A stretch of DNA of 56,969 nt from a virus. Of the stretch, positions 19,072-48,130 are shown piece by piece. The stretch lies in the IMG/VR virus record IMGVR_UViG_3300048838_000199, positions 1 through 56,969 of that record. One strand, given 5' to 3'. The position numbers and the translations under genes were made by a program. Under the pieces are notes generated by a model, which worked only from the letters and a program-made list of their open reading frames with translations, had not been told where the DNA came from and did no database searches. Position 1 is the first letter of the stretch, and each line of letters begins with the position of its first letter.

Positions 19072-19100
19072 GTTATACCGCACCGTGCAGCACGGTGCGG
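19072..19100 (-). promoter_or_regulatory. Promoter with longest operator palindrome (site S1)
   Basis: -10 TATAAC at 19072-19077. Directly upstream lies a 23-bp near-perfect palindrome at 19078-19100, arms CCGCACCGTGC and GCACGGTGCGG around a central A/T. It is the longest member of the RTGCWGCAY family. The gene it serves starts 27 nt downstream, so this mRNA has a short leader. Confidence 0.6.
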
Positions 19101-24305: not shown

Positions 24306-24334
24306 GTTATACCACAATCATGCAGCATGATGCA
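24306..24334 (-). promoter_or_regulatory. Promoter with operator (site S3)
   Basis: -10 TATAAC (24306-24311). Upstream lies ATCATGCAGCATGAT, a near-perfect palindrome of the operator family, at 24317-24331. The portal stop is only about 5 bases further. Confidence 0.55.
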
Positions 24335-29115: not shown

Positions 29116-29145
29116 GTTATACCACAGCGTGCTGCATGATGCAAT
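29116..29145 (-). promoter_or_regulatory. Leaderless promoter with operator (site S5)
   Basis: TTGCAT, 17-bp spacer CATGCAGCACGCTGTGG, TATAAC (29116-29121), 6 nt to the ATG at 29109. Confidence 0.7.
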
Positions 29146-38398: not shown

Positions 38399-40426
38399 CT
38401 ACCCGCTGGTTGCCACCGAGTGGGCCGAATCCATGGCCGCCGGGTGTGGCGTTGGCGCGAACGACAGCACCAGGCTGTCGGCCTTGTCGGGTGACTTCAC
38501 GCCACGGTCGCGCATGTCCTTCTTGCTTTCCATCTGGACCTTGCCGCTGGGCACCTCGATGGTCAGCACGCTGCACAGTTGGCCGATCAGCTCGGGGTCG
38601 TTCGGGATGCTGATGCACTCGGTGGGGTCGTGGGGCACACCGCCTGGGTCGCCTTGCCGCCACAGCCACAGCTCGTATGCCTTCCTGAACCTTTCGCGCA
38701 CCGTCCAATACAGCTCTGCGCGCATGTTGGTAAACAACTCCTTGGCCGGCTTGTCGCCAAAACGTCGCCCGCTGCACTTGCCGCTGCCGTTCACCGCGTG
38801 CAGCTTAAATGGCCACTGCTTGCCGCCGTTGGCCTCGGGGTGGTATTCGCTGGCCAGTGGGCCGCCATAGCCGCCGCCGGCATCGTAATGCAGCACCCGC
38901 GCACTGACGCTGCTGGTGACCATCAGCATGGCCCTGGCCACCTGCGCCGGCACTGGCCGCACAATCACCTTCTGCAGCACCACGCTGGCCCCTCTGCGCA
39001 TGGTCCACACGTCCACGTCGGCACCGCTGCCCGACAGGTCCGCGCCGCATTCCACGATTTCGCCCATGTCGCCCAGGTCCAAGTTGATGGCCGCCGTCAC
39101 CCACGCGAATGGGAACACCAGCCGATCGCTGGACGCGCTGTAATCGATGTCCACTTCGCGCGCCATCTTCGCCGGGTCTGTAAACCGCTGCTTGGCCTTC
39201 TCGTACCAGGGGTAAATGATGCGCCGGGCACCGATCGTGGCCGGGTCTGGGGATTCGCCCTTGCCCGTGGCGATCGTGTTGCCCTCGGTGTCCAACGCCA
39301 GCCAGGTGTTCTTGCGCGGGTCCTGCTTCCACCGCAGCGACAGCACCGGGTGGTTGCCGCTGAACCGCTTGGTGGCAAACCAGTCGCCGGGGTTGTTCGG
39401 GGTGGACAGCCAGAACTTCACCTCGGCAGTTTCGGACAGCGACGCCTCCACGCTGTCGGGCTTGGCCGTGAATGCAGCCTCGTCAATCAGCACGCGCGTC
39501 GCACGTCCACCGCGCCCGATCTGGTTGCCACCTTCACCCACCAGCAGCGAACCGTTGGCCGGGTTCAGGATGCGCAGCCGCAGGCCGTGCTTGGCTTCGT
39601 CGTATCCCACCGGGGCCATCCAGCTGGGCAGCGTACGTATCATCATGCGCGCCTTGTGCATGATGCTGGACGGGTCGCCCTTGCTGTCCACCAGGGACAC
39701 CTTGCGACTGCAGAACAGGCCGGTGAACTCAGGCTCGAACAGCCAGGACCAGGTGAACCAGGCCACCAGCAGCCAGGTCGCACCCATGTCGCGCGCCTTC
39801 TCGATGATGCCCTCGGCCTGCGCGCCTTCCACCTCGAACAGCCACCGGGCAGCTTCCACCTGGTAGTCGAACGGGATAAACGGCAGCATGCCCTTGTTGG
39901 GTGGCCGTGGCTCGTACGTCCAGCCGTAGAACTCCAGCCAGTACAGGAACCCGTCGACACCGCGCGCCGGGCTGCACTTGTCCAGCTCGGCCTGCTGTTT
40001 GGCCACGTCGCTGTTGGCCTCGGCCAGCAGCTTGCTGCGCTGCTCCAGGTTGGCCAGCTCGACACCGCGCGCCGGGCTGCACTTGTCCAGCTCGGCCTGC
40101 TGTTTGGCCACGTCGCTGTTGGCCTCGGCCAGCAGCTTGCTGCGCTGCTCCAGGTTGGCCAGCTCGACACCGCGCGCCGGGCTGCACTTGTCCAGCTCGG
40201 CCTGCTGTTTGGCCACGTCGCTGTTGGCCTCGGCCAGCAGCTTGCTGCGCTGCTCCAGGTTGGCCAGCATGGTGGGGTTGGTCAGCTTGGCCAGCCCTCG
40301 TATCACCAGGTGCGTGGCCTGGTCAGTGCCCACCTGCTTGCCGTGCCTGGCCAGCTCGTTGCGCACCACCTGCAGCTGTGCCGACTGCCGAACCTTCTGG
40401 AAGGCCAGCCGCGCCGTTCTACCCAT
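38399..40426 (-). CDS. terL: Terminase large subunit (ATPase and nuclease)
   Basis: 675 residues. ATPase: EKARDMGATWLLVAWF (Walker A-like, about 215) and TRVLIDEAAF (Walker B). Nuclease: ADLSGSGADVDVWTMRR (first Asp), VLHYDAGGGYGG, and the C-terminal PDKADSLVLSFA (last Asp). The N-terminal 120 residues hold three perfect copies of a 35-residue unit (LANLEQRSKLLAEANSDVAK then QQAELDKCSPARGVE), absent from normal terminases in this number. The ATG overlaps the previous stop region by 8 bases. It pumps DNA into the prohead and cuts concatemers. Confidence 0.9.
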   Translation of the reverse strand: MGRTARLAFQKVRQSAQLQVVRNELARHGKQVGTDQATHLVIRGLAKLTNPTMLANLEQRSKLLAEANSDVAKQQAELDKCSPARGVELANLEQRSKLLAEANSDVAKQQAELDKCSPARGVELANLEQRSKLLAEANSDVAKQQAELDKCSPARGVDGFLYWLEFYGWTYEPRPPNKGMLPFIPFDYQVEAARWLFEVEGAQAEGIIEKARDMGATWLLVAWFTWSWLFEPEFTGLFCSRKVSLVDSKGDPSSIMHKARMMIRTLPSWMAPVGYDEAKHGLRLRILNPANGSLLVGEGGNQIGRGGRATRVLIDEAAFTAKPDSVEASLSETAEVKFWLSTPNNPGDWFATKRFSGNHPVLSLRWKQDPRKNTWLALDTEGNTIATGKGESPDPATIGARRIIYPWYEKAKQRFTDPAKMAREVDIDYSASSDRLVFPFAWVTAAINLDLGDMGEIVECGADLSGSGADVDVWTMRRGASVVLQKVIVRPVPAQVARAMLMVTSSVSARVLHYDAGGGYGGPLASEYHPEANGGKQWPFKLHAVNGSGKCSGRRFGDKPAKELFTNMRAELYWTVRERFRKAYELWLWRQGDPGGVPHDPTECISIPNDPELIGQLCSVLTIEVPSGKVQMESKKDMRDRGVKSPDKADSLVLSFAPTPHPAAMDSAHSVATSG
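39954..40268. repeat. Three perfect 105-bp tandem repeats inside terL
   Basis: Units 39954-40058, 40059-40163 and 40164-40268 are identical. Each encodes 35 residues of a charged helix ending in KCSPARGV. The unit keeps the frame. The lack of any difference among copies means very recent expansion, strong homogenisation, or an assembly artefact. Confidence 0.9.
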
Positions 40427-45613: not shown

Positions 45614-46390
45614 CTACCCTCCAGCAGCTGCAGACGTGGTGCCCTGTTCCTCGATCTTGCGCCGAATCACTTCCATGCCCATGATGTTGCGCGCCTCGGC
45701 CTGCCGATCTGCCGGCAGCGATGCCACGAACTTGTCGCGCTGTTCGCGCCTGGCCTTGGCTGCCTCGGCATGCACTTGCAGCTCTTGCTCGATCTGCTTG
45801 CGCTGCTCCAGGTCCAGCGATGGCTTGGGGGCTGTCGATGCCGGCAGTGCCTTTACTGCGCCATCTATGCGCGCCTCGATCGTGGCCGCCAGCTGCTTCA
45901 GCGTCGTGCCCTCGGGCAGGGGTGACGGTCGTCGTCGCAGGCCGTTGTCATACTCGCAGTCCAGCATGCTGGCCCAGTAGGGCAGGCCCTTGTTGATGGC
46001 GTTGCGCCGGCTGGTCACGCACACCCTGCCATCCTCGCAGACATACACCGGGTCGTTTATCACCCCTGGGGGGTTGCGCTTGTGCTTCAGCGCGCGCATG
46101 GCGTTCACCAGCTCGGCACTCGATGGGAACCACCGCAGTGATCTGCGCACCTCGTGGCCGTCGGCCATCACGTCGCCCAGCTCGATGCCCGCGTCGGCCA
46201 GGTCCATCACGTACAGGCCGACGGTTTCAGGGTCCTGCAAGTCGAACCCGCGCAGCCGCTCGGAAGGCATGGGCAGGCCGGCCTTCATCATCAGCAACAG
46301 CATGGCGTCGACGGCAGCCCACAGTTGTGGGTTCCTTGCATAAACGCCGTCGTACCATTCCTGCTGCACCTTCTCAGGCTTCTGACTCAT
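45614..46390 (-). CDS. Replication-module protein, possibly helicase loader
   Basis: 258 residues. The start ATG overlaps the initiator gene by 17 bases. EVRRSLRWFPSSAELVNAMR resembles the FPP/FPS segment of small helicase loaders, and it stands directly after an initiator as in lambda O-P. A GRVCVTSRRNAINKGLPYW segment and a long C-terminal coiled coil (EQRKQIEQELQVHAEAAKAR) follow. There is no Walker motif. The loader role is inference from order. Confidence 0.5.
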   Translation of the reverse strand: MSQKPEKVQQEWYDGVYARNPQLWAAVDAMLLLMMKAGLPMPSERLRGFDLQDPETVGLYVMDLADAGIELGDVMADGHEVRRSLRWFPSSAELVNAMRALKHKRNPPGVINDPVYVCEDGRVCVTSRRNAINKGLPYWASMLDCEYDNGLRRRPSPLPEGTTLKQLAATIEARIDGAVKALPASTAPKPSLDLEQRKQIEQELQVHAEAAKARREQRDKFVASLPADRQAEARNIMGMEVIRRKIEEQGTTSAAAGG

Positions 46391-47318
46391 TACCAGCTCC
46401 CAGCGCGTGTGCCTGGCCGTTTTGGGCCGCAGCTGCTCGTATCATCTGCTGCCGTTGTTCCATGGTCTGCACCATAGTCTGCACGCCATGCCGCACGCTC
46501 TTACCATTTACAGACGCTGCAGAACCGGGTTCTGGTTTCCATTCGCGCGCCACGTCCTCGATGATGCCCTGCCACTGGCCGCCGGCAGCCCTCTGAACGG
46601 CATGCACGACAGCCGCCAGTGGGTACTTGTCCCACCAACCGCAGTTAGTCACGCGCAGCCCGTAGACGGTGGGCATGCCCTTGCGCTTGTCGGCCTTGCG
46701 CGCCTTCACCCACTCGATCATGGCTTCGCGAAGCTCGGGGCAGCTGGCATACGGTTCGCGCACCTCATAATCGCCATCCTTCACGTGCAGCGTAGGCCAG
46801 TCCTTTGCGAAGTCGGGCACAACAATCGCCGCAGATGCAGCCAGGTCGCCCTCTTGTCTGTCTGATGGATGTTCTGATGTATGTTCTGATGTATTGGGTG
46901 GCGTGGTGCCGCACCCCCCTGCGGCATCAGGCCGCACCCCCCTGCGGTCTGTCGTCGCACCCCCTGCGGCATGGTGCCGCACCCCCTCTGCCGGGGTGTG
47001 GCATGGTGCCGCACCCTGTTCGGTGGGTTGGTCTGGGCCGTCGGCCAGCTGCTTCAGCCGCTGCACGTCCAGCCTGTAGACGCTCGGGAACCCTATGCGC
47101 TCGGCCACCAGAACCAGCACGCGCTGCTCCTCCAGTTTCGCCATGATGCGCTGAACCGTGCGCCTGTCCAGGCAGCAGCGTGTTGCTATGGTGCCCTTCG
47201 CTGGCCGCACGTTGTTGCCTTCGTCGTCGGCACGATCGGCCAAGGCCAGCAGGATCAGCTTCTCGGCTGGGGTGTCGGTGGGAATGTCCCAGACCTGGCT
47301 CATAAGTCTGATGCTCAT
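46374..47318 (-). CDS. Winged-helix replication initiator-like protein
   Basis: 314 residues. N-terminal winged helix: AEKLILLALADRADDEGNN, VRPAKGTIATRCCLDRRTVQ, RIMAKLEEQRVLVLV. A Gly/His/Pro-rich linker (about 100-155) is encoded by a DNA repeat array. The C-terminal domain has AMIEWVKARKADKRKGMPTV, GLRVTNCGWWDKYPLAAVVH. The layout (HTH, iteron-bearing linker, C-terminal domain) is that of lambda O-type initiators, which bind the origin inside their own gene. A 190-nt structured leader precedes it. Confidence 0.65.
   Translation of the reverse strand: MSIRLMSQVWDIPTDTPAEKLILLALADRADDEGNNVRPAKGTIATRCCLDRRTVQRIMAKLEEQRVLVLVAERIGFPSVYRLDVQRLKQLADGPDQPTEQGAAPCHTPAEGVRHHAAGGATTDRRGVRPDAAGGCGTTPPNTSEHTSEHPSDRQEGDLAASAAIVVPDFAKDWPTLHVKDGDYEVREPYASCPELREAMIEWVKARKADKRKGMPTVYGLRVTNCGWWDKYPLAAVVHAVQRAAGGQWQGIIEDVAREWKPEPGSAASVNGKSVRHGVQTMVQTMEQRQQMIRAAAAQNGQAHALGAGNESEA
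46861..47023. other. Candidate replication origin: iteron array with direct-repeat AT-richer side
   Basis: Five related units with core GCCGCACCCCC-TGCGGC at 46908-46925, 46931-46948, 46954-46970, 46976-46994 and 47008-47023. Starts are 23, 23, 22 and 32 bases apart. Because the spacing is not a multiple of three, the peptide is not repeated, so the DNA itself is under selection. Each unit is also a small palindrome (GCCGCA/TGCGGC). Next to it lie two copies of ATGTTCTGATGT (46869-46880, 46881-46892), the least GC-rich part, a possible unwinding element. Confidence 0.6.
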
Positions 47319-47548
47319 GCCAGGGCCTCGGGTTGTTGAAGATGTCGCCGGCCTCGTGCCAGCTGGGTGTGTCGGGTAACTGCCATTTTGTCGTTTTGTC
47401 TTGTGGTCGTTCCAGCCCTCACTGCGCGGACTTGCACGGCCTATGGCAGTTACCCGTCTAAGGTATGGCCAGCAGCCGCGCAGTGAAGTGTTCTCTGGTT
47501 CGTTGGGTTCTATTATAGACGTTTACGCCTGCCACAGCGTGCTGCCCA
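47319..47548. other. 230-bp non-coding region before the initiator gene
   Basis: The longest gap in the genome. It holds the interleaved inverted repeats, a minus-strand promoter (47512-47517), an operator-like CCACAGCGTGCTGC (47532-47545, same 14 bases as site S5) and a second TATAAT (47548-47553) overlapping the RusA-like stop. No credible gene is seen in it. Confidence 0.65.
47373..47486 (-). ncRNA. Interleaved inverted repeats, possible pseudoknotted leader RNA
   Basis: Arm A1 CGGGTAACTGCCAT (47373-47386) pairs with A2 (47443-47456), 14 bp perfect. Arm B1 TCACTGCGCGG (47419-47429) pairs with B2 (47476-47486), 11 bp perfect. The order A1-B1-A2-B2 is interleaved, so both stems together make a pseudoknot. 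A TATAAT at 47512-47517 would start an RNA that contains all arms and runs into the initiator gene at 47318. It may be a leader RNA controlling the initiator or a DNA structure for replication. Confidence 0.55.
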
Positions 47549-47553
47549 TTATA
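47512..47553 (-). promoter_or_regulatory. Initiator promoter region with operator (site S11)
   Basis: Two TATAAT boxes, 47512-47517 and 47548-47553, with GGGCAGCACGCTGTGG between them. The first would give a leader of about 185 nt before the ATG at 47318. Confidence 0.5.
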
Positions 47554-48130
47554 ACCTGAAGGGTTTCACCTCCTGCGCTGGCACGATCTGCACGAACAGC
47601 CTGGCCCTGATGTTGTCAGGCTTGCCAGCTGCGCCGCCGGTGATGGCCACGTGTTCGGCCCTGGTCAGGTACCAGGTGCGCCAGCCCTTGATGCTGCGCA
47701 CGTCGTCGGTGCCATCCTTGGGTTCATCGCCCTTCTTGGCAGGTGGTGGCTTGGGCAGCACGCCGGTGTCGACCAGCACGTCGCCCACGCACTTCTGCAC
47801 GTTGTCCCAGTCGCGCGACTCGATGAAGCCACGGCCACCGAACACCCACAGATACACCACCACCGGGCCATCGAACTGGCCGGCCTGATACTTCTGCAGG
47901 ATGGCCTTGGCGGCCCGTTGTGCCCAGGCCGTGTATTCCTTGGTTGGGAACGTCTGCACCCACAGCCGCAGCTTGCCCTTGCACCTCGGGCACACCTGGC
48001 CAGGCTGCGACGGTGGTGCCGGCTGGCACTGCACGCGCTGCTGGTTCCGATGGTTGCCACTTGGCACCAGGTTGTACTTGTCGCCTTCCTTGCCGGCCAT
48101 CCAGCCGAATAGTTCCACCGCGTCCTTCAC
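47549..48130 (-). CDS. RusA-like Holliday-junction resolvase
   Basis: 193 residues from a GTG at 48130 overlapping the previous stop. The RusA pattern is GPVVVYLWVFGGRGFIESRD then WDNVQKCVGDVLVDTGVLP and DGTDDVRSIKG, giving DxDN-K-D-DD. An unusual N-terminal insert has CPRCKGKLRLWVQTF (zinc knuckle). It should cut recombination or replication junctions before packaging. Confidence 0.7.
   Translation of the reverse strand: MKDAVELFGWMAGKEGDKYNLVPSGNHRNQQRVQCQPAPPSQPGQVCPRCKGKLRLWVQTFPTKEYTAWAQRAAKAILQKYQAGQFDGPVVVYLWVFGGRGFIESRDWDNVQKCVGDVLVDTGVLPKPPPAKKGDEPKDGTDDVRSIKGWRTWYLTRAEHVAITGGAAGKPDNIRARLFVQIVPAQEVKPFRL

Follow-up and report, generated by a model that had tools for sequence, protein, structure and literature searches.

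In plasmids of the IncI-alpha type, a pseudoknot activates expression of the replication initiator. For the IncI-alpha pseudoknot leader, a passage of PMC10724649 cites Asano and Mizobuchi (1998), and a coupled leader peptide has been described in plasmid replication leaders (PMC5304414). In phage T4, gene 32 has a pseudoknot 67 nt upstream that is bound by gp32, an ssDNA-binding protein, and the 2010 review that describes it considers gene 32 to be possibly the only case of viral translational autoregulation by a pseudoknot (PMC3014915).

The window analysed here is a whole virus record of 56,969 bp. In its 230-nt gap 5' of an O-like initiator gene, the initial annotation had reported two perfect inverted repeats of 14 and 11 bp in the order A1-B1-A2-B2, and both were confirmed exactly as described: the arms of the first lie at 47373-47386 and 47443-47456 (CGGGTAACTGCCAT, 14 bp), those of the second at 47419-47429 and 47476-47486 (TCACTGCGCGG, 11 bp), and the two repeats are therefore interleaved. 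In the sense RNA, stem B is extended to 13 bp (47476-47488 with 47417-47429) by an added U-G and an added C-G pair. The corresponding H-type pseudoknot would have a stem 1 of 11-13 bp, a stem 2 of 14 bp, and loops of 19, 13 and 30-32 nt. The features of the locus, read along the minus strand, are the following.

47549 to 48130, minus strand: upstream gene, RusA-like Holliday junction resolvase, with a presumed GTG start
47548 to 47553, minus strand: second TATAAT element, overlapping the RusA stop codon
47535 to 47548, minus strand: GCAGCACGCTGTGG-type sequence, common to the phage promoter/operator family; the same motif is present in the copy at 29116
47512 to 47517, minus strand: TATAAT, a -10 element without consensus -35; expected start of transcription at about 47505
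47476 to 47488, minus strand: 5' arm of stem 1 (B; CTTCACTGCGCGG), perfect core 47476-47486, from the repeat search and sense-RNA pairing
47443 to 47456, minus strand: 5' arm of stem 2 (A; CGGGTAACTGCCAT), from the repeat search
47417 to 47429, minus strand: 3' arm of stem 1 (B'; CCGCGCAGTGAGG), core 47419-47429, from the repeat search and sense-RNA pairing
47387 to 47416, minus strand: loop 3; its 3' part is A/C-rich, predicted to be unpaired, and lies directly 5' of the stem-2 AUG
47373 to 47386, minus strand: 3' arm of stem 2 (A'; ATGGCAGTTACCCG), which begins with the A of the AUG
47315 to 47386, minus strand: putative 23-codon leader ORF (MAVTRHTQLARGRRHLQQPEALA), without a Shine-Dalgarno sequence
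46374 to 47318, minus strand: O-like replication initiator, 314 aa (phrog_1032, HTH_36)
46897 to 47016, no strand assigned: five 20-nt palindromic repeats (spacing of about 22 nt) inside the initiator gene

A and B are unique in the 57-kb window, as no other two repeats interleave within 160 nt with arms of 10 bp or longer in both; 0.15 pairs of that kind and 0.05 repeats of at least 14 bp are expected per window. When the 230-nt gap was shuffled 20,000 times (first-order Markov), their combined length of 25 bp was never reached, the shuffle maximum being 21 bp. These figures bear out the initial claim that such an arrangement is unlikely to arise by chance. Nested folding of the leader favours hairpin B alone (p 0.99, -73.4); a rough hand estimate for the pseudoknot is -62 to -72, and the gap to hairpin B is within error. 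When G-U pairs are allowed, two coding segments of the window, which is GC-rich, reach almost the same score (-56.5 and -55.7), and therefore the distinguishing feature of the locus is perfect pairing in non-coding DNA, not energy alone.

The leader, which had been called non-coding, is not wholly so: a putative 23-codon ORF starts in the downstream arm of repeat A, which opens with the ATG of this ORF (47386, minus strand). The TGA stop codon of the ORF overlaps the ATG of the initiator (ATGA). Such an overlap is automatic, because O-like proteins begin with Met-Ser, encoded as ATG-AGC or ATG-AGT; considering this and the absence of a Shine-Dalgarno sequence, this ORF alone is weak evidence. 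A plasmid-like logic is plausible, in which translation of the initiator would be coupled to that of a leader ORF. The locus resembles the leaders of IncI-alpha, IncB and IncL-M plasmids (repY-repZ type) in having pseudoknot-capable interleaved stems 5' of the initiator and a short, putatively coupled upstream ORF. It differs from them in that no antisense RNA promoter was found near the leader, in that the initiator is a phage O-like HTH protein (not the RepZ or RepA of IncI-alpha and IncB), and in that the plasmid pseudoknot activates, whereas stem 2 of the window would bury a start codon. Because a consensus scan gave no antisense RNA promoter and the initiator is different, the leader is not a member of the IncI-alpha type.

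The locus resembles gene 32 of T4, T2 and RB69 in its association with a phage replication gene and in its predicted 5' pseudoknot, after which the RNA is mostly free of structure up to the translation start. In contrast to T4 gene 32, its stems are longer, the AUG is located in stem 2, no RNA-binding protein is known, and the leader precedes an HTH initiator, for which autogenous binding is a guess. The likeness to lambda-type O lies in an HTH initiator with palindromic repeats inside the coding sequence; however, most of the O-like genes examined abut the upstream gene, while the initiator of the window sits behind a long leader in which promoter-like elements are present. The leader would most likely work like the IncI-alpha or T4 gene 32 leaders, and it probably belongs to neither group. 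The initiator matches phrog_1032/391 with an O-like N-terminal domain, and the repeats at 46897-47016 are probably iterons of the replication origin, by analogy with lambda O. In L189 (1339-1441), another O-like initiator gene contains palindromic repeats as well, four in number and 22 nt long (CCCAACGGCGTTGGG type).

Transcription of the leader had been predicted to start at about 47505. The TATAAT at 47517-47512 agrees with this position, but a good -35 was not found. TATAAT or TATAAC elements occur 13 times on the minus strand of the window and twice on the plus strand (total expected, 2.4), and most of those on the minus strand belong to a recurrent promoter carrying the palindrome CACCGTGCWGCACGGTG. 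Since the two TATAAT elements in the 230-nt gap adjoin a fragment of this palindrome, but have no consensus -35, transcription from about 47505 is plausible. The recurrent minus-strand promoters are found at 19072, 20489, 26562, 29116, 31302, 38056 and 44511, the best copies reading TTGCAT-17-TATAAY; the palindrome is placed between their -35 and -10 elements, and they probably form one operator family. Other TATAAT elements with partial palindromes are present at 24311, 33692 and 52397.

DNA and protein searches (with the initiator, RusA-like, DUF5131-type and tail proteins) in collections of phages, plasmids and viral contigs that may lack near relatives returned no close kin, and topoisomerase, the best marker, showed at most 54% identity to others. 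A 14-mer scan yielded 74 contigs, in which the matching inverted partner never went beyond 10 of 14 positions, and no comparable leader was found in G005 (L189), which has a distantly related initiator.

The architecture was compared in about 4 Mb of other phage DNA, whose loci are labelled L###. The top match of a first, strand-neutral scan of this DNA for interleaved perfect repeats was L143, in which repeats of 10 and 24 bp immediately precede an O-like initiator; 5' of these repeats are a TTGACA-17-TAAGAT promoter and a terminator. L143 and the window carry replication genes of the same types: Gp3-like, O-like initiator, RusA-like, DUF5131-type and topoisomerase. A sense-strand scan of O-like leaders, with G-U pairs allowed, gave L212 and L198. 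The former, which also precedes an O-like initiator, has stems of 13 and 14 bp that were matched in 0 of 40 and later 0 of 1,500 shuffles; they include four G-U pairs, and the fold is therefore specific to the sense RNA (score -55.4, vs -35.4 for the antisense). The latter is a weaker version (-39.8, 0 of 200 shuffles) from a relative with a neighbourhood resembling that of L212, and has TTTT 3' of stem 2. A later scan across all loci added L171 and L219 and again gave L123. In L171, a pseudoknot lies between TTGACT-17-TATAAT and an HTH gene (no family match), which is followed by DnaC-, DnaB- and primase-like genes.

Two further leaders place translation signals inside the fold. In L219 (1472-1613), an HNH gene and an O-like initiator overlap (ATGA), and a pseudoknot of 21 + 11 bp covers the start of the former; stem 2 of this fold consists of the first 11 bases of the HNH gene and starts exactly on the AUG, so that here, as in the window, the AUG opens the 3' arm of stem 2. 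In L123 (5235-5337), TTGACT-16-TATAAT is followed by a pseudoknot of 17 + 12 bp, and the 3' arm of stem 2 holds the Shine-Dalgarno sequence of an unknown gene of 110 aa. The sense strand scored better than the antisense in all seven leaders tabulated. The arm sequences are unrelated among the window and the other phage replication leaders, while the architecture is alike. The initial reading of an RNA pseudoknot in the initiator leader is strengthened by this like architecture before other replication genes and by the G-U pairs of L212.

Among about 100 O-like initiator leaders examined, most do not have a pseudoknot leader, commonly because the upstream gene abuts. Another 1.15 Mb, when scanned, yielded a single convincing leader, L384 (3147-3220), a compact pseudoknot of 8 + 18 bp with loops of 15, 2 and 5 nt, placed 19 nt 5' of a 204-aa gene with a good Shine-Dalgarno sequence that is, as far as seen, no replication gene. 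L384 and L123 show that the architecture also occurs outside initiator leaders. In a stricter scan, no segment out of 7,350 reached -55 with both stems at -20; the looser scan across all loci gave about a dozen segments that scored -55 or better, including two in other parts of the window. In GC-rich coding DNA, the energy score thus lacks specificity. Since initiator loci are over-represented in the sample and the window was itself ascertained, we claim no formal p-value for enrichment. A strong score in L292 was set aside because it looks like a dispersed repeat, as were matches in L133 and L215, which are located in iteron-like repeats; some of the remaining high scores, which stem from G-U pairs in GC-rich coding DNA, were discounted.

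Our favoured explanation, at about even odds, is that the repeats form the two stems of a pseudoknot in the sense RNA and that this fold keeps initiator translation in check. In this scheme, for which we infer transcription, folding, short-ORF translation, repression and trigger, stem 1 would be the first to fold, giving a 5' hairpin whose loop contains half of stem 2. As the rest of the RNA emerges, stem 2 would close over the AUG of the short ORF, which would be translationally coupled to the initiator via the ATGA overlap. The folded leader would hold initiator translation low until a ribosome or a bound protein unfolds it and translation is allowed; autogenous binding by the initiator is a first guess for the trigger. 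In the window and L219 the coupled AUG would be buried, and in the other leaders the approach to the start site would be obstructed; simple AUG burial does not fit all cases, because the pseudoknots of L143, L212, L198 and L171 end 16-22 nt 5' of the start codon.

More tentatively, and with doubt prevailing, it may be proposed that unrelated phage lineages have independently put large pseudoknots with no shared sequence at the 5' end of initiator operons as translational governors, including a sub-type whose stem 2 ends precisely on an initiator-coupled AUG when it closes. If this is true, phage replication would be under a widespread, undescribed RNA control that is invisible to homology and covariation methods. 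Should the leaders work as proposed above, replication genes of different phages would repeatedly be controlled by pseudoknots in which the structure is kept and the sequence is free. The dosing of the initiator by the phage would become testable, and interleaved long stems between a promoter and a replication operon would provide a homology-free search rule.

The strongest rival, which we consider unlikely, is that the fold is a 5'-terminal mRNA stabiliser or an RNase III processing site and does not gate a start codon: with coaxial stems of 20-35 bp close to where the transcript begins, the message could be protected, or cleavage could set its lifetime. The closeness of stem 1 to the predicted transcription start (about 4-10 nt in L143 and L212, about 17 nt in the window) agrees with this explanation, as do the four leaders in which the structure ends before the gene and no start codon is buried. 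However, a plain hairpin would suffice for such a role and the interleaving is left unexplained, as is the presence of the AUG (window, L219) or the Shine-Dalgarno sequence (L123) inside stem 2.

An element acting at the DNA level, be it a set of operator sites, sites for looping, a cruciform or a structure connected with replication, appears quite improbable. The interleaved repeats are about 360 bp from the iterons and their arms have GCAGTKA half-sites in common, but the similarity is weak and its spacing irregular, one protein is not expected to need two different perfect arm pairs, and L212 pairs as sense RNA only. The cruciform or protein-site option of the initial annotation is a poor fit to L212.

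The likeness to plasmid copy-number control, also raised initially, is plausible as far as the coupled-ORF logic is concerned. Full control of that type, in which an antisense RNA would bind the hairpin and block pseudoknot formation or leader-ORF translation, is very unlikely, even though a putatively coupled short ORF and interleaved repeats stand 5' of the initiator as in plasmid leaders: a consensus scan found no plus-strand promoter into the leader nearby, the sole plus-strand TATAAT-type element in the vicinity (47550) is directed away from it, and the initiator is O-like and not a plasmid Rep. That the leader promoter drives a distinct small non-coding RNA, functionally apart from the initiator mRNA, is slightly less probable still. 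Promoter-like elements of its own, a compact structure and the TTTT of L198 would suit such an RNA, but no terminator was found 3' of the structure in the window, and the position 5' of replication genes recurs. Moreover, Rfam 15 gave no match above the gathering score in the window, L123, L143, L171, L198, L212 or L219 (best sub-threshold match, 17.3 bits vs 60); a match to Atu_At1 was rejected as being on the wrong strand and far below threshold. Chance, the least credible origin, could appeal to the similar-scoring, G-U-rich pseudoknots of GC-rich coding DNA, but is opposed by the perfect pairing in non-coding DNA, by the shuffles and by recurrence before replication genes.

Elsewhere in the window, the terminase large-subunit gene contains three identical tandem 105-nt copies (39954-40268), which represent either a recent expansion or an assembly artefact.
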